From IMG/VR virus record IMGVR_UViG_3300022842_000016, positions 1 through 49,744 of that record: 49,744 nucleotides of DNA; one strand, 5' to 3'. The notes beneath the pieces were generated by a model. It was not told the DNA's origin and made no database searches. It worked only from the letters and a program-made list of their open reading frames with translations. The position numbers and the translations under genes are program-made. This DNA comes from a virus. Positions 10,486 to 40,604 of the stretch are shown here, piece by piece (the first letter of the stretch is position 1; each line of letters starts with the position of its first letter).

Positions 10486-11661
10486 CTAAGTTTGTGCTAA
10501 ACTTGAAGGTTCGTGTTTATCAGCCCGTAATAATATTTTTTTTCTCCCTTCTTTTGCTTCCGTTGCCATAAGAGCTTTAAAGATTTGATATGCAACTTGC
10601 GGTACTATTGCGTTTCCATATCCTTTAATTGATTCTTGTCGCCATTTAGGAAAGGTAATTCCGTCCAGTTGGTTGGAAAACCCATCATTTCGGCCACAAA
10701 TTGGGGATTGAGTTGGCCATTGCTCCCAGTCTGTAATTTGATGGCGTTCGGTAGCTGATCCTGATGGCTGTTCCCTTTGCTTTTTGGCTTTCTTGTCAAG
10801 TGTTCCATCGAGTTTCCTCCTTTGTAATCTCTCATTGCAGGTGTCGGTAACATTTTCCTGTTTGCCATTTCGCCAATCGTCATTCCAAAGCCGTTCCCGT
10901 TTATCCCCTTTGCTTTTGCTCTCTCTCTTCGTTTGTCTATTTTCTCCAGGTCTCCGCAATTTGTGTCCATTACTACTGGGGTTGGAAGTAAGTTGTAAAA
11001 CATTGCTGCATCTATTATGCTGTTCGGTCTGTTTTCTCCCGCAGCTCTGCTCATCATTGTTTTTGCTCCAGTCGCTTTCAGTTTTTCCACTCGTTCGGGA
11101 TGGTCCTGTTGTACGCTCGTTGGCGTAGGCCACAAACCAAACTCTATCTCTTCTATGGGGAGCGTTGACGGCAGCAGCTGGAAGAATACACGGTTGTACT
11201 TTGTACCCTTCATTTTCCAAGTCAGTTTGCACCTCGTTGAAAACCAATCCTCCATTCCAATTAGTGAGTCCATAAACGTTTTCTCCCACGATATACCTGG
11301 GCTGAATCTCTCGAATTGCTCTAAGCATTTGCGGCCAGAGATGTCTATCGTCTTCCTTACCAAGTCTTTTACCTGCTGATGAATAAGGTTGGCAGGGGAA
11401 ACCTCCTGTAAGGATGTCGATTTTTCCTCTATGAATAGAGAAGTCTGTTTTGGTAATGTCTTCATAAGATATTGCTTTAGGCCAGTAATGTTTTAGTATT
11501 TTTTGACCAAACTCGTTCCATTCGCAATGGAAGATATTCTCCCATCCCATCCATTGAGCTGCTAAATCAAAACCACCTATTCCAGAGAAAAGAGATCCGT
11601 GTTTTAGGCTATGGCCTAATTTGCCATCGCTCAAAAAAATATTATTACTAAGTTTCGTCAT
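10486..11661 (-). CDS. dcm: DNA (cytosine-5-)-methyltransferase, 391 aa
   Basis: All core motifs are present: motif I FSGIGG (residues 25-30), motif IV GGFPCQPYS with catalytic C90, motif VI GENVYG (126-131), motif VIII APHRRDRVWFVA (167-178), and the C-terminal motif GNAIVPQVAYQI (349-360). It transfers a methyl group from AdoMet to cytosine C5, probably protecting phage DNA. Residues about 180-320, the target-recognition region, are unusually polar (Ser, Asn, Lys, Arg, Glu) with little hydrophobic core. The reason may be that the same DNA encodes a second protein of 286 aa in the +1 frame (10605-11465). Confidence 0.93.
   Translation of the reverse strand: MTKLSNNIFLSDGKLGHSLKHGSLFSGIGGFDLAAQWMGWENIFHCEWNEFGQKILKHYWPKAISYEDITKTDFSIHRGKIDILTGGFPCQPYSSAGKRLGKEDDRHLWPQMLRAIREIQPRYIVGENVYGLTNWNGGLVFNEVQTDLENEGYKVQPCILPAAAVNAPHRRDRVWFVAYANERTTGPSRTSGKTESDWSKNNDEQSCGRKQTEQHNRCSNVLQLTSNPSSNGHKLRRPGENRQTKRESKSKGDKRERLWNDDWRNGKQENVTDTCNERLQRRKLDGTLDKKAKKQREQPSGSATERHQITDWEQWPTQSPICGRNDGFSNQLDGITFPKWRQESIKGYGNAIVPQVAYQIFKALMATEAKEGRKKILLRADKHEPSSLAQT
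10605..11465 (-). CDS. 286-aa protein overprinted on the methyltransferase gene
   Basis: This frame lies entirely within the methyltransferase gene (its codons ~66-352), shifted by +1. It looks like a real protein: MKTLPKQTSLFIEEKSTSLQ at the start, then ISWEKTFMDSLIG...STRCKLTWKMKGTKYNR, three (L/W)PTP motifs (LWPTPTS at 111, LLPTPVV at 159, MLPTPAM at 205, the last followed by RDYKGG), and LNPQFVAEMMGFPTNWTELP at residues 252-271. I recognise this C-terminal motif (LNPxxVExxMGFPxGWT) from phage proteins encoded beside or annotated as methyltransferases. The function is unknown; it may partner the methyltransferase. Confidence 0.7.
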   Translation of the reverse strand: MKTLPKQTSLFIEEKSTSLQEVSPANLIHQQVKDLVRKTIDISGRKCLEQFERFSPGISWEKTFMDSLIGMEDWFSTRCKLTWKMKGTKYNRVFFQLLPSTLPIEEIEFGLWPTPTSVQQDHPERVEKLKATGAKTMMSRAAGENRPNSIIDAAMFYNLLPTPVVMDTNCGDLEKIDKRRERAKAKGINGNGFGMTIGEMANRKMLPTPAMRDYKGGNSMEHLTRKPKSKGNSHQDQLPNAIKLQTGSNGQLNPQFVAEMMGFPTNWTELPFLNGDKNQLKDMETQ

Positions 11662-34052: not shown

Positions 34053-37000
34053 ATGGAAGAACAAGACCAGTTAATAATTGATATGTACAAGAAATATGCT
34101 GACAAAGGTATTTCTCGATCTGATATTTCTACTGTAAAAGAACTTTATGGAGAGGATATTGACGCAATGATTAATGATATACACTTAAAATACAAGGGTA
34201 AACCATTAAATACAGGTGATATTGAAAAAATAAAAGGGTTATATGATTTATCTACGAATAATACTCAATCCCAGTCTAGTATTAAGGAACCTGATATTAT
34301 ATCTCCAGAGCCAACATCCCCAACCGCTCAGACAGTAAATCCTTTTCTTTCAGGAGAAATTGACCAGCAAGCGCAACCAAGAATAGAAGAGCCTCCTACG
34401 TATGGATATCAAGGGGCGCAGATTGATCGTGACAAAGCTATGGATATTGTGTCCAACGCAAGCGAGACGGGGCAAATGGAAGGCCTTAATGTTTCAAACG
34501 ATCCTGAAGTATTAGATGGCATGAAGCGAAAACTTGCTGAATTAAAAGGTGAGACAGAAACGATTGACCCCACAGAAGAAAAGGTAAAAGTAAATCCAGT
34601 AATGTCTTTCCTTAACATCTTCTCAAAAACAATAGCGAATACTCCAGCAGACATATTAGAAGCGTGGGCTATCGCTAGTGCTTTTACAGAGAGACAATTA
34701 GCTAATGTTCCTGTTATTGGAAAACCTGCAAATAAAGAGCTGAAAGCGTCTGATATAGGAACGTTTAAAATAGCGGACGATTGGAGGAAGTTTACAGAAG
34801 AGCTTTACCCTGTAAATGAAGGGGATGAACAGACTTTTGGAGGCGGGGTAGTTGCCGGATTAGGGCAAATAGTACCAATGGTTTTAACCGGAGGGCAATC
34901 GGGCACCGCTCAATTAGTAAAAACAGCTCTAATTAAAGGTACAAAACTAACTCCTTATATAAAAGCAGGAAAAGAAGTATTGAGCAGAGTAGGTTCTAAA
35001 CAGGGGTTGATAGGCGGTTCTCAAATGGCTGCACCAATGTATAAAGAGGCTATTGAATCAGGGGCCACAGAAGACGAGGCTCTTCAATATGCCATAGAAA
35101 ACTTTATCGTAGGATCTGTAATGGAGTCTCTTCCAGTTCAAAGTATGTTCTCTAGGATCAAGAAAATAGAACCCGGGGCCAAAATATTAAGCGTAGTCAA
35201 GGATGGAGCTGTAGGGTTTACGGAGGAAGCGGTTACTGAGATGTGGCAAGCAACCTTTGCTAATATGTCAGCTCAAAGAATTTATGATTTCAACAGGGAA
35301 ATACTTGATGGCGTAGGTGAGGAAGGCGCTATAGGCGGAACGGTAGGCTTCTTGATGAATACCGCTATGAGCGCACTAACAAAAAGAAGAGGGAATTTCT
35401 CTGGCGCCAATAAGGATATTATAGACAAGTCTATAAAAGAGCTCGAGTCAAAAATAAAATCCATTGATCAGAATAATGAATCATTAAAAGAGAGCGTAGA
35501 AAACTTAGAGAATACCAGTGTTATAACACTACAAGTAAATGAGTCCGAAATGGACTTTATAGAAATGCCTGATGGGACTATTGAGGCAGTAGAGGAAGGG
35601 ATGAGTGAAGCAGAAGCTAACTCTAAGGTGGATGCATTGTCTGAAAAATACCCTAACATGGAGTTTTCGATAGTTGACAACACAAACAAATCTGACCCAT
35701 ACGCTGAGACTGGCTACTTTGTTGTCGCAAAGAAAAAAGAAGCTAAAAAAGAGAGCGTAGAAAACTTAGAGAATACCAGTGTTAAAAAACTACAAGTAAA
35801 TGAGTCTGAAATGGACTTTATTGAAAACCCTGACGGGACTATTGAGGCAGTAGAGGAAGGGATGAGTGAAGCAGAAGCTAACTCTAAGGTGGATGCATTG
35901 TCTGAGAAATACCCTAACATGGAGTTTTCGATAGTTGACAACACAAACAAATCTGACCCATACGCTGAAACTGACTACTCGGTTGTCGCAAAGAAAAAAG
36001 AAATCACTAAAGAAGATGAACCAATCATTGAACCCGAGAATGAAGCAAAACCAGCAGATAGCCAAGACGGTGAAGGAAAGGAACTTCCTGTTAATGAAAA
36101 TGGTGGAGAAAAATCCGATGTTGAAGGAGTTAGTGAACAAGTTCAGGTAGACAAACCATCAGATGAACAGCAGTATGAGGAAGCTATAAATGGAGATCTT
36201 GTAACATTCACCTATAATAAAGAGGATGAAATCCCTGATGTTTTCAAAGATAGGGTATCATCAAGGGGGACAAATGATAAGGGAGAAGAAATAATAAGGG
36301 TGACTGTGCCGAAATCATTAGCTGATTACGAATTAAAGAACCAAGAGAAGCAAGAAGTTAAACAGTCGAAACAGTCTAAAGATGAGCAAATACCAGAGCC
36401 AGAAGTTCCTCAAAAAGAACCCAAGGAAAAGGTTAAAATAGAGATTATTCCTGAAAAAACAGAGGAAGTAATCCCCGAAGAAACTAAAATTGAAAAGGAA
36501 GACGCCAGGCCAAAAATAGGATTTACTTTATTCGGGGAATTCATAGAAGGTAGGCTTAATGAAGATGGGTCTGTAGAATCACCAGACAGAGGAAGATATC
36601 CTGCTGCAATGGTTGATAATATTGTAGAGTTGACTGACAGTAAAAACACTAAAACAGAAAAAACACAGCCAAAAAAGAAAGATCTATCAAAAAAATCAAA
36701 AGAAATTAAAGAAGAAATAACTAATCTATTTAGTGATTTTTTTGATGCTGGAAAAAATAATCTTACGTCTGGTGGCGTTTCTCCTGATCAATTAGCTATA
36801 GCTGGTAAAATAATAGTTAAAGCAGGTAAACTTGGAATTAATACATTTGAGCAATTAGTAGAATGGATAAGAGATAACATAGGGTCAGAGAAACTTATAG
36901 AAAACTTTGATGCTATAAAGTCATCTTACATATATAACTTGTCAAAAAGCAATCCAAATAATGAATCTATAGAAGGTATTAGCAAATTTAGATTGTCAGA

Positions 37001-40000
37001 AACTAAAAAGGATACCAAAGGAATACCCCTTAAATCCAGAAAAAAAGAAGCAAAGCCGTTATCTATCAAGCAGCAGATAAAGGAATCCACTGAGGGAAAG
37101 CCATCAAAAGAAAAAGACACATCTGTAAATGAGTATAACGAGATGAAAAAAGATCTCAGGAGCAGGGTTAAAGCAGCAAAAGAAGGTTTTAAAGAGGGAG
37201 TAAAAGTTGCTAGTAAAAAAGCCAAGGACAAATCAGATAAGGTTCAGGCAATGAAAAATATTGTAACCAAATTTGTGAAAGATGATATAAAAGACACTCC
37301 TCTTGATGATTTTACTAAGTCCGAAATAAACAAAATAGTTACTGAATTAAACAAAGCCAAAACAGAAAGATCAGTCAATAAGGCTATTGATGCTATTTTT
37401 GACGTAATAGCTAAGTCTGGAACAAGAAAGAGGTTAAAAGGAGCTAGATCTAAGATTGCTACAGCTAAAAATAATGTTAAAAAAGGTAGAATTGGAACAT
37501 TATCTCCAAATAGCCCACTGGACAGAATGCTTAAATTAAACCCAAAAATAGTGCCTAATGAGGTGTTTAATGAGTATGAATCAATCTTAAATGAAATAGG
37601 AGAAAGAAAGTCCAATTTAAATTTGTCTGAAAAAGCCTTATTGAACACAAGAGTCAATAAAGTCATGGATGCTATTTCTGACCAAAACTCAAGAGTATCA
37701 GACTTAGCTCTTACTTATGAAGGGTTCGACAACAAGCAATACACTAAATCCGGTAAGGAATCATTTGAAAAAACAGTAGACCAAATGGTTAAGGATGGGG
37801 AAATAGACCAAGAGGATGCTGATTTCATGAAGCTGATGAAGGACGATATATTCTCACCGGAAGTAAGTAGTACTCCCGATCAAGATATTGCAGAAGCGAG
37901 AAGAGAAACTTTGAGCAAGAAAAATGCCTTAGATGTAAAGGGCTCTAATCAATACGAATATTCTATTATAAAATTCTTGAAATCAATAACACCGAGCGAT
38001 TTAGACTCTCTTTCTTACAGGGAGATTCAGCACTTAGGGCAGATAATCGACAATGTTTCCAACGGTTTCTATACTCATTCGGCTGAGAATATGAGGCAAA
38101 AAGTCGAAGGTGTCAGGTCTGGTAAAAAAATAAAAGACGTTATTTTTGATGCTAAAAGTAGGTGGATGGATTTTATATCGGCTACAAAGGCGGGTATAAA
38201 AAATGCAATATCCCCTGGGTCTACTAGCACGATAAAGGAGAAGGTGAAAAGGAATCCCACCCCATACATTGATCAGACTATAGGCAACTTCAAAAACACC
38301 TCTGTTTACAGGAGCACTTTCAGAAAAATAGGTAGGGCGTTTAGCTCATTTGAGCAGGAGGTTAATACCATTACTGAGAGGTTGATAAAAGCAGAATCAT
38401 TAATCCCTGAGTCAAAACAATTTGAAGTAAGGGCTAAATTAATGATGATTGCCGTTCAAAGGGAGTTCATGTCAACCCCTGATGGTAAAACTCACTCCGC
38501 AAAAGAATGGATGGATGCCACAGTAGAAGATAAAGATTCCATATACACAAAGGAATCGAAAGATAAGATAGAGAGTATTTTTAATGAAAGCGCAACCGAA
38601 GGGGAGTTTGACCTAAAAAAGGCTATAGCCAGCCTAAGTCAGGACGAAAAAAAGGTACTGAAAATCTTAGAGGGTGTTAATAATGGATTAAAGCCAAAAG
38701 CAGACCATACCGCTACTATCATAAGAGGTAATAGAGTTCCTATATACGAGAACTATATCCACGTACCGTTAGCGGTAAAAGGAGGATTAAGAGAAGGTCC
38801 AGATATAAAGGAATTAAACAGAACAGGGGTCAGGGTTTCCACTAAAGGCGGAAGCTTAATTGAAAGATCGGGGAAGGCTCACGCTATATCTTTTGATATC
38901 TTTGATAATGTAATATCCGGGGCAAGAAAGACACTGTTAGATTACCATATGACTCCCGCTGACAGAGAAGTCAAAAAAACTATGTCTTACCTAAAAAAAG
39001 AAGCGTCAACAGAATCAGAGATTGACAACGTAGCGTCTATCAACGGGGTTTATAATGAGGTAATGGAGAGTGTTTTTGCGGATATACTAGGTAACAAGCA
39101 TTTGTTGGATCAGATATCTGAAGAAGCTATAAGGAAGGGGTATCAATCAATGCTCGGAGGATTAGGTAGATCTGCGTCTGAAATGACCTCTAACGCAGTG
39201 TTTGCTATGATATATAAGGGCGACGAAACAATGAGGGGTATAGAAATGGCGGGAGAGATGAGCTTGTCCGACATGTCTAAGGCTGCCACAAATCTAGGCA
39301 CCACTCAGTCTACTAGATTATTTGATTATACGGGGATGAGTGGTAAGCATATTGACTTCTCTGGATCATCTATGAAAGAAATCAATAAAGTCACATCATA
39401 CAATGAGACCATTAAAGAGCTTTTATCTAAGTTAAAAAACGACCCAACGTACAAGCTATCTGATAATATAGGTCCCATACTTCAGAAAAAGGCGGGGCAG
39501 GCTTTTAAAGGGGTGAAAGACAACGCAGTCTATAAAACGGTTGACAATATACAGTCCTTTCTTTTATCTAAGCCAGACCAACTGATTGCTAGACCTATGT
39601 GGTTTGGGTCTTTTTCTACAGAATTTGAGAAGATAACAGGAAAAAAGCCAGACATGGATAAGATAGCAAATAATGATCTGGATTATATGAATGATAATTC
39701 AGATGCGTTAAACGAATCTGTAGCCGTAGCGGATGATGTTATGATTGAGGCTGTGGCCTCTTCCAATCCATTCGACGGAATACCTAGGAATCATATCGGG
39801 AGGTCAAAGAATTGGATAACCCCTTTTTATAAAGCGTTTAATGGATTTATGACTAAATTCCCTACTTATGAATATAATTCAGCTCTAAGAGCCACTTACA
39901 GCTTAGTGGATAACGGTATGCTATCAAAACCTGACGCTATAAAACTGTTGGCAGCGTTAAGCGCTAGGCTTGTAACTTACTCAGTAATGACAGGAACGCT

Positions 40001-40604
40001 TCTTAATTTTGCATACAGAGGAATAGTCTCCGTTCTAGGGTATGAGATGGAAGACGAAGAAGAGCAGAGCTTGGCTTCCAAAGAGTACTGGACTAAACAA
40101 GCGTTAACTATTGTGGCTATGCTATCTGTAAATAGGAATTTAGGTAATTTCTCAAAAGTCCCTATAAATTACGCAGTTGAGAAGCTGAATAAGAAATATG
40201 GAGAGGGAATTACATATGAAGGTGATTACGATGGGTTCGGTGATAATATAGTTTATCCTCTGATTCCAATAGAGCAAACATCAAGCAAATCAGTGTTCCA
40301 AGCATCTTTAGAAAATGCATCTGGGCCATTATCCCCGTTAGTAAAGACAGTGGCACGGGCGGGAACGGCTATAAAAAGAGCTACTGATGAAAAATCGAAA
40401 GAGACTACCAGAGAGAAGTATAGAAACGAATTATTGCATAGAACCCCATTGGAAGTATTTGGAAACATGGGCTACATCCCGTTCTATAAAGATATCAGAG
40501 CAATTCAGCTTAAAATAATGTACGAAACAATGGAAAAGGCTGACAAAGTATCAAAAGACGCATATACTCCATCAATTAACATTGGAACCAAGAAAAAAGA
40601 ATGA
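34053..40604 (+). CDS. Giant ejected virion protein (polyvalent-type), 2183 aa
   Basis: By far the largest gene. It starts with two short helical repeats (MYKKYADKGISRSDISTVKE, then LKYKGKPLNTGDIEKIKGLY), has hydrophobic or amphipathic segments near residues 205-420 (AGLGQIVPMVLTGGQSGTAQ), a disordered acidic and Lys-rich middle (about 470-1000) with an 87-aa tandem duplication, and a helical C-terminal half with VNNGLKPKADHTATIIRG and a hydrophobic part near residue 1970. Large proteins like this are packaged and injected in T7-like and crAss-like phages. No polymerase or protease motif is visible to me, so the enzyme content is unknown. Confidence 0.7.
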   Translation: MEEQDQLIIDMYKKYADKGISRSDISTVKELYGEDIDAMINDIHLKYKGKPLNTGDIEKIKGLYDLSTNNTQSQSSIKEPDIISPEPTSPTAQTVNPFLSGEIDQQAQPRIEEPPTYGYQGAQIDRDKAMDIVSNASETGQMEGLNVSNDPEVLDGMKRKLAELKGETETIDPTEEKVKVNPVMSFLNIFSKTIANTPADILEAWAIASAFTERQLANVPVIGKPANKELKASDIGTFKIADDWRKFTEELYPVNEGDEQTFGGGVVAGLGQIVPMVLTGGQSGTAQLVKTALIKGTKLTPYIKAGKEVLSRVGSKQGLIGGSQMAAPMYKEAIESGATEDEALQYAIENFIVGSVMESLPVQSMFSRIKKIEPGAKILSVVKDGAVGFTEEAVTEMWQATFANMSAQRIYDFNREILDGVGEEGAIGGTVGFLMNTAMSALTKRRGNFSGANKDIIDKSIKELESKIKSIDQNNESLKESVENLENTSVITLQVNESEMDFIEMPDGTIEAVEEGMSEAEANSKVDALSEKYPNMEFSIVDNTNKSDPYAETGYFVVAKKKEAKKESVENLENTSVKKLQVNESEMDFIENPDGTIEAVEEGMSEAEANSKVDALSEKYPNMEFSIVDNTNKSDPYAETDYSVVAKKKEITKEDEPIIEPENEAKPADSQDGEGKELPVNENGGEKSDVEGVSEQVQVDKPSDEQQYEEAINGDLVTFTYNKEDEIPDVFKDRVSSRGTNDKGEEIIRVTVPKSLADYELKNQEKQEVKQSKQSKDEQIPEPEVPQKEPKEKVKIEIIPEKTEEVIPEETKIEKEDARPKIGFTLFGEFIEGRLNEDGSVESPDRGRYPAAMVDNIVELTDSKNTKTEKTQPKKKDLSKKSKEIKEEITNLFSDFFDAGKNNLTSGGVSPDQLAIAGKIIVKAGKLGINTFEQLVEWIRDNIGSEKLIENFDAIKSSYIYNLSKSNPNNESIEGISKFRLSETKKDTKGIPLKSRKKEAKPLSIKQQIKESTEGKPSKEKDTSVNEYNEMKKDLRSRVKAAKEGFKEGVKVASKKAKDKSDKVQAMKNIVTKFVKDDIKDTPLDDFTKSEINKIVTELNKAKTERSVNKAIDAIFDVIAKSGTRKRLKGARSKIATAKNNVKKGRIGTLSPNSPLDRMLKLNPKIVPNEVFNEYESILNEIGERKSNLNLSEKALLNTRVNKVMDAISDQNSRVSDLALTYEGFDNKQYTKSGKESFEKTVDQMVKDGEIDQEDADFMKLMKDDIFSPEVSSTPDQDIAEARRETLSKKNALDVKGSNQYEYSIIKFLKSITPSDLDSLSYREIQHLGQIIDNVSNGFYTHSAENMRQKVEGVRSGKKIKDVIFDAKSRWMDFISATKAGIKNAISPGSTSTIKEKVKRNPTPYIDQTIGNFKNTSVYRSTFRKIGRAFSSFEQEVNTITERLIKAESLIPESKQFEVRAKLMMIAVQREFMSTPDGKTHSAKEWMDATVEDKDSIYTKESKDKIESIFNESATEGEFDLKKAIASLSQDEKKVLKILEGVNNGLKPKADHTATIIRGNRVPIYENYIHVPLAVKGGLREGPDIKELNRTGVRVSTKGGSLIERSGKAHAISFDIFDNVISGARKTLLDYHMTPADREVKKTMSYLKKEASTESEIDNVASINGVYNEVMESVFADILGNKHLLDQISEEAIRKGYQSMLGGLGRSASEMTSNAVFAMIYKGDETMRGIEMAGEMSLSDMSKAATNLGTTQSTRLFDYTGMSGKHIDFSGSSMKEINKVTSYNETIKELLSKLKNDPTYKLSDNIGPILQKKAGQAFKGVKDNAVYKTVDNIQSFLLSKPDQLIARPMWFGSFSTEFEKITGKKPDMDKIANNDLDYMNDNSDALNESVAVADDVMIEAVASSNPFDGIPRNHIGRSKNWITPFYKAFNGFMTKFPTYEYNSALRATYSLVDNGMLSKPDAIKLLAALSARLVTYSVMTGTLLNFAYRGIVSVLGYEMEDEEEQSLASKEYWTKQALTIVAMLSVNRNLGNFSKVPINYAVEKLNKKYGEGITYEGDYDGFGDNIVYPLIPIEQTSSKSVFQASLENASGPLSPLVKTVARAGTAIKRATDEKSKETTREKYRNELLHRTPLEVFGNMGYIPFYKDIRAIQLKIMYETMEKADKVSKDAYTPSINIGTKKKE
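35490..36005 (+). repeat. Tandem 261-bp duplication in the giant gene
   Basis: The sequence GAGAGCGTAGAAAACTTAG begins at 35490 and again at 35751, so the period is 261 bp (87 codons). The two units differ at few positions over about 255 bp and encode segments such as SEAEANSKVDALSEKYPNME. The frame is kept. The close identity points to a recent duplication in a disordered part of the protein. Confidence 0.9.

Follow-up and report, generated by a model that had tools for sequence, protein, structure and literature searches.

M.EcoHK31I (YGGCCR; Lee, Kam and Shaw 1995) is described as a two-polypeptide methyltransferase with motifs I-VIII and X in the large subunit and motif IX in the small subunit, and both polypeptides are needed in vitro (PMC3404938). 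The introduction of the same paper places the predicted target-recognition domain (TRD) of M.EcoHK31I in the large subunit. M.AquI, which also consists of subunits alpha and beta, is split in order, with motifs I-VIII in the first subunit and IX-X in the second. The small subunit of M.EcoHK31I is reportedly read from an alternative frame within the gene of the large subunit. The multispecific C5-methyltransferases of the Bacillus phages SPR, phi3T, rho11 and H2 are described as carrying tandem TRDs in a variable region (PMC8936443, citing Wilke 1988).

We analysed a virus record of 49,744 bases, and this whole stretch of DNA is called the window. Terminase, portal and DnaB-like helicase genes are present in it. 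Among the structural genes, a 2183-aa ORF at 34053-40604 on the plus strand has a sole match to phrog_32588, a PHROG of unknown function. The initial annotation had placed a 286-aa ORF in the +1 frame inside a cytosine methyltransferase gene, and the ORF listing bears out these coordinates. We refer to the methyltransferase frame as alpha and to the inner frame as beta. The beta ORF is 861 bp long with its stop, starts with ATG and spans alpha codons 66-352. Very probably, the two overlapping frames of a single message specify the two subunits of one DNA (cytosine-5) methyltransferase, alpha contributing motifs I-VIII and X, and beta the TRD and motif IX. The features, with their evidence in brackets, are as follows.

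10486..11661, minus strand: alpha, C5 cytosine methyltransferase large subunit, 391 aa, with motifs I-VIII and X and without IX (ORF; PF00145; phrog_363)
10605..11465, minus strand: beta, overlapping gene in frame +1 of alpha, 286 aa, proposed target-recognition and motif IX subunit (ORF; phrog_1008; relatives; constraint)
11463..11465, minus strand: ATG start codon of beta (position kept in relatives; +1 stops depleted from here on)
11122..11601, minus strand: alpha residues 21-180, catalytic domain from the motif I region to VIII (AF2 core; Foldseek; alpha dN/dS 0.11-0.18)
11389-11397, minus strand: alpha PCQ (motif IV)
11275-11283, minus strand: alpha ENV (motif VI)
11137-11157, minus strand: alpha HRRDRVW
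11253..11465, minus strand: beta residues 1-71, over alpha motifs IV-VI, probable passenger N-terminus (stop-free; little or no protein constraint)
11136..11252, minus strand: beta residues 72-110 (DWFSTRCKLTWKMKGTKYNR...), over alpha motifs VI-VIII (both frames constrained)
10992..11132, minus strand: beta cassette 1 (WPTPTSVQQDHPERVEKLKATGAKTMMSRAAGENRPNSIIDAAMFYN) (cassette clustering)
10854..10988, minus strand: beta cassette 2 (LPTPVVMDTNCGDLEKIDKRRERAKAKGINGNGFGMTIGEMANRK) (cassette clustering)
10722..10850, minus strand: terminal LPTP segment of beta, preceding motif IX
10656..10712, minus strand: motif IX-like LNPQFVAEMMGFPTNWTEL of beta (invariance in A2; alignment to canonical IX joined to alpha X; Pfam control set)
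10657..11115, minus strand: alpha residues 183-335, apparent polar linker in the alpha frame (dN/dS; stop counts; AF2 pLDDT)
10570..10632, minus strand: alpha motif X (SIKGYGNAIVPQVAYQIFKAL) (conserved in A3; confident in AF2)

The division of motifs I-VIII and X from motif IX, seen here with Pfam and with a motif IX-X model, is that of M.EcoHK31I as published. This locus and its relatives do encode the small subunit in a different frame within the large-subunit gene. However, the TRD of M.EcoHK31I is assigned to the large subunit, whereas the TRD-like cassettes described below lie in the small-subunit frame. Unlike in M.AquI, motif X stays with the catalytic subunit here, and nearly all of beta is nested within alpha. 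The cassettes occupy a place similar to that of the tandem TRDs of SPR, phi3T, rho11 and H2, and the TRDs of such multispecific Bacillus-phage enzymes are similar to them in size. Those enzymes are single chains read in one frame, whereas the cassettes belong to a second frame and a second subunit.

Alpha matches PF00145 (E 3.7e-49; Pfam) and phrog_363 ('DNA methyltransferase', E 3.6e-74). The motif I region, PCQ (IV), ENV (VI), VIII and X are present, and the PCQ, ENV and motif VIII that mark the catalytic domain of PF00145 were found in alpha by profile, in the invariant columns of A3 and by Foldseek. Foldseek aligns motifs I-VIII with M.HhaI and with M.HaeIII across some 165 columns; the best solved-structure matches end at motif VIII (M.HhaI, alpha residues 18-182). 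The C-terminal 181 aa of alpha gave no Pfam match. AF2 predicted I-VIII and X with confidence and the intervening part as disordered, with pLDDT below 50 at residues 188-276 and 295-326.

A motif IX-X model was applied in a comparison of 41 genomes, where L181, L213, L248 and L250 were partial and uninformative. Canonical methyltransferases, which have IX-X in frame, scored 46-89 bits on this model. Members of the alpha family reached about 30 bits at most, from X alone. No overlapping beta was found at the canonical methyltransferases of these genomes; it was found in +1 at the alpha-family members without IX. The methyltransferase had been credited initially with every core motif, and this must be corrected for motif IX, which is missing from alpha by structure match, Pfam and the IX-X model. 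PF00145 has TRD and motif IX in one chain, and alpha does not have both. Because motif IX lies in the beta frame, it takes the pair to make a complete member of the family, and alpha on its own is not one.

The motif IX that alpha lacks is found in beta. The C-terminal end of beta, LNPQFVAEMMGFPTNW, fits motif IX, and MMGFP..WT is invariant in A2 (beta). Beta alone has no Pfam match. It matches phrog_1008 ('DNA methyltransferase') with E 4.5e-23 at profile positions 41-281 of 329, which is most of the length. We made a DNA-collinear splice in which beta, from the first cassette to motif IX, is followed by alpha from motif X, with the joins at alpha nucleotides 531/532 and 1039/1038. The C-terminal 181 residues of the splice match PF00145 (E 2.3e-5; 24.5 bits, cut-off 22 bits). 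In the same search, the C-terminal half of alpha, the C-terminal half of beta and the shuffled splice each matched nothing. When 129 loci were scored on a motif IX-X model built from 32 canonical enzymes, the splice came out ahead of the alpha frame in 118 and ahead of the shuffled control in 126. At whole length the Pfam score of the splice was just 1.4 bits above that of alpha, so that the support for the splice comes from the C-terminal tests. Beta gave no match to solved structures by sequence, profile search included. An AF2 model of beta alone (47 relatives) was poor (pLDDT 54, pTM 0.28) and for this reason was not used for a fold search. Given this model and the lack of a solved-structure match, the TRD fold of beta is putative.

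We compared selection on the two frames in 27 disjoint pairs, using alignments made on alpha, which if anything favour alpha. The alpha dN/dS was 0.11-0.12 in the non-overlapping ends and 0.14-0.18 over motifs IV-VIII. In the cassette region it was 0.86 (bootstrap 0.77-1.02), and that of beta was 0.44 (0.33-0.54). Beta had a value of 0.25 in the motif IX region. Both frames were constrained over beta 72-110 (alpha 0.18, beta 0.33). Over beta 1-71 the dNN/dNS ratio was 0.81 vs. 0.55-0.64 in non-overlapping controls; measured against this control ratio, protein constraint is absent or slight in beta 1-71 and present in 72-110. An independent repeat in proteobacterial phages gave 0.84 for alpha and 0.29 for beta over the modules. 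The comparison of synonymous and non-synonymous change in both frames, which the initial annotation had put forward as a check, therefore came out with beta constrained over the modules. Along the DNA, the constrained frame changes from alpha to beta and back to alpha, in the canonical order I-VIII, TRD, IX, X.

Only 5 alpha-frame stops were observed in the modules of 135 loci, compared to 769 expected, and the alpha frame was open through the modules in 130 of these loci, compared to 0.9 expected. A stretch of alpha that is unconstrained in amino acids but stop-free indicates that alpha must be read through to motif X. From the substitution rates and the AF2 model, alpha 183-335 appears to be a linker and not a target-recognition domain. 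A polar TRD in alpha had earlier been viewed as the cost or result of overprinting. The stretch is indeed polar, but it is an unconstrained, stop-free linker and recognition apparently lies in the beta frame.

These rates bear on a reading in which the enzyme is split but the TRD is in alpha, as predicted for M.EcoHK31I, and beta carries motif IX only. Such a reading agrees with the M.EcoHK31I assignment as given in the introduction of the published paper (PMC3404938), and alpha does have a long insert at the right place. However, alpha dN/dS in the insert is 0.84-0.90 vs. 0.29-0.44 for beta on the same DNA, the insert is disordered in the AF2 prediction, and the conserved cassette pattern belongs to beta, not alpha. 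We consider a TRD in alpha very improbable. The literature assignment for M.EcoHK31I disagrees with the selection pattern at this locus.

The overlap was then followed among relatives. A set of 164 loci was collected from IMG/VR and bacterial genomes, mostly with beta as the query, and alpha overlaps in the same relative frame in 163 of them. In the exception (L061), the N-terminal part of alpha and the C-terminal part of beta share one ORF, a layout that a single-base indel would produce, be it a sequencing error or a partial fusion that arose naturally. Since this set is biased towards beta, alpha alone was used as a second query. All 80 further viral loci found in this way have beta in +1, with a median longest open run of 266 in +1 and 38 in +2. 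With the alpha of an Escherichia phage as query, beta was kept in 80 of 81 distant proteobacterial-phage loci. In the remaining one (L423) beta is stopped and alpha is intact, and LNPAHSRWLMGLPRAW, the motif IX end, is still read in +1 behind the stop. The pair was also found in Paenibacillus (gp54/gp55 of phage Tadhana), Lacticaseibacillus, Synechococcus and marine phages, and of 5426 complete E. coli genomes 66 carry a related sequence. Nearly all relatives examined, in phages and in bacterial genomes of several phyla, share the overlap. The initial annotation had reasoned that methyltransferase homologues with a broken second frame, and the absence of any homologue of the second protein, would speak against overprinting. 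Instead, nearly all homologues keep the +1 frame, and relatives of the second protein number in the hundreds.

Beta might be an independent protein that overprints the methyltransferase without any part in catalysis, acting for example in anti-restriction or regulation. Small accessory proteins do occur in phages, and the failure of beta alone to match Pfam or a solved structure would fit this. On the other hand, wherever beta was seen alpha accompanied it in the same frame relation, in the 41 genomes compared beta was found only where alpha is without motif IX, and the beta C-terminus together with alpha motif X completes PF00145. An independent protein is highly improbable on these grounds. 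It had been suggested at the outset that the second protein might tune specificity or have a separate role; the former is close to the best reading, and the latter is not supported.

The statistics of the +1 frame indicate that the beta ORF is a real gene and more than a product of chance. The longest stop-free run in alpha is 295 codons in +1 and 36 in +2. A +1 run of 295 codons was reached by none of 5000 synonymous shuffles of alpha (maximum 264) and by none of 5000 codon-order permutations (maximum 228). Among 138 relatives, 13 stops in +1 were observed in beta 1-71 vs. 378 expected, and 0 vs. 132 expected in beta 72-110. In the alpha-only flanks of the same relatives +1 stops were enriched (401 and 240 vs. 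283 and 143 expected, respectively), and the +2 frame showed no comparable stop depletion. Of the 138 relatives, 74 have the beta ATG at the same codon and a further 26 have it one codon downstream. In a Paenibacillus phage relative, a Shine-Dalgarno-like GGGAGGTG is found upstream of this ATG.

The near-absent constraint in beta 1-71 is unexpected for a separate protein unless this part is a passenger leader, which it probably is. Programmed +1 frameshifting from alpha, which would yield an alpha-beta fusion and not a separate subunit, could also account for first residues that are barely constrained as protein, and functional constraint does change frame along the gene. However, constraint on beta starts at residue 72. 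This point lies upstream of alpha motif VIII, and that motif is under constraint in its own frame. One shifted chain cannot hold both beta 72-110 and alpha motif VIII, and a frameshift fusion is disfavoured for this reason. The depletion of +1 stops from the conserved beta ATG on, in a stretch otherwise unconstrained in beta, and the Shine-Dalgarno-like sequence of the Paenibacillus relative also argue against frameshifting, to which we give very little chance. That the +1 openness is a by-product of alpha composition, no second protein being made, can be practically discounted: the alpha insert is polar and of low complexity, and biased genes can have long +1 frames, but shuffles of neither kind match the run, the stop depletion is limited to beta, the beta start codon is conserved, and the constraint on the beta frame in two distant groups already contradicts it.

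The three (L/W)PTP motifs of beta had been noted to be the same DNA as VAYANE, LTSNPS and VTDTCN of alpha, and we confirm this coincidence. We surveyed the region preceding motif IX in 220 distinct betas. Each contains 1-5 LPTP-type segments with a median length of 40 aa. The segments fall into 106 clusters, and 20 clusters (at least 3 members) are represented at two or more positions among different phages. The cluster of cassette 1 has 20 members at three positions in different betas, and that of cassette 2 has 63 members at two positions. The cassettes look like target-recognition domains shuffled between phages. Their distribution suggests that they are exchangeable, perhaps with multiple specificities, and each cassette may read one site. 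More tentatively, these phages may hold a large and ancient class of C5-methyltransferases whose DNA-reading domain is an exchangeable array of ~40-aa cassettes in a second frame. There would then be one methylated sequence per cassette, the cassettes would be selected to be stop-free in both frames, and specificity would be reprogrammed by swapping such dual-open modules. We regard this wider proposal as possible, if somewhat doubtful.

For the split methyltransferase, we propose that alpha would provide AdoMet binding and catalysis (motifs I-VIII) as well as motif X. Beta would have its translation start at an internal ATG that lies 196 nt downstream of the alpha start, and would supply the target-recognition modules and motif IX, corresponding to the small domain of an M.HhaI-type enzyme. 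Association of alpha and beta would be needed for a sequence-specific enzyme, in which the LPTP cassettes would most likely determine which site or sites are methylated. A likely use in the phage would be to shield its own DNA from host restriction. As to origin, the TRD-IX segment of a single-chain ancestor most likely slipped one base relative to both flanks and was rescued by internal initiation, alpha still being read through as a linker to X. The canonical motif order along the DNA makes such a frame slip likelier than the invention of an additional protein on top of an existing gene. Simple overprinting of the latter kind does not fit, because the beta frame carries motif IX, a part of the ancestral enzyme. 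Of the long same-strand overprinting put forward initially, the overlap and the real second protein hold, and the simple overprinting origin does not.

Both proteins already have entries in the PHROG catalogue, beta by its match to phrog_1008 and alpha by that to phrog_363. They are listed as separate families, and their relation as an overlapping pair is not stated there. Our literature search, confined largely to openly accessible papers, found none in which the overlap is presented as the common feature of a family. What seems to be new is how broad the family is, the functional frame switch along the gene and the shuffled ~40-aa LPTP cassettes of beta. If the split-enzyme reading is correct, a long same-strand overlap would prove to be the way in which a large family of phage enzymes is generally built, and not a curiosity of M.EcoHK31I. 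Many 'DNA cytosine methyltransferase' annotations would then be without their specificity subunit, and consequently the prediction of specificity from alpha, or the cloning of alpha alone, would fail. The locus shows directly how two frames can partition functional constraint. It would also offer a naturally modular, split methyltransferase whose specificity is open to study by cassette exchange.

Annotation of the pair varies among records, and one of the two genes is often missed. Both ORFs are annotated in some phage records. In E. coli 40EC (L441), whose chromosome was inspected in full, alpha alone is annotated, and +1 is open with the LPTP pattern. In E. coli 914033 (L445) an open alpha is annotated as two 'incomplete' pseudogenes. 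Synechococcus phage Sc-Yong805-2 (L442) has beta alone annotated, as a hypothetical protein, and alpha is missed.

Six loci in Bacteroides genomes (L125, L128, L132, L134, L150 and L156) have 2-3 in-frame TGA codons in alpha. Nearly all are at positions where relatives have Trp (LAAE-W-MGW, DFRE-W-RGK, GDNP-W-N and FSR-W-RQ), and they are without frameshifts. At the same loci beta is fully open and the neighbouring ORFs are normal. The TGA codons may reflect recoding, readthrough control or decay. In the proteobacterial-phage alphas L083, L361, L376, L392 and L425, ENV of motif VI is replaced by EQS or EQV (FGEQSAS, FGEQVAS), which is unusual for a catalytic motif.
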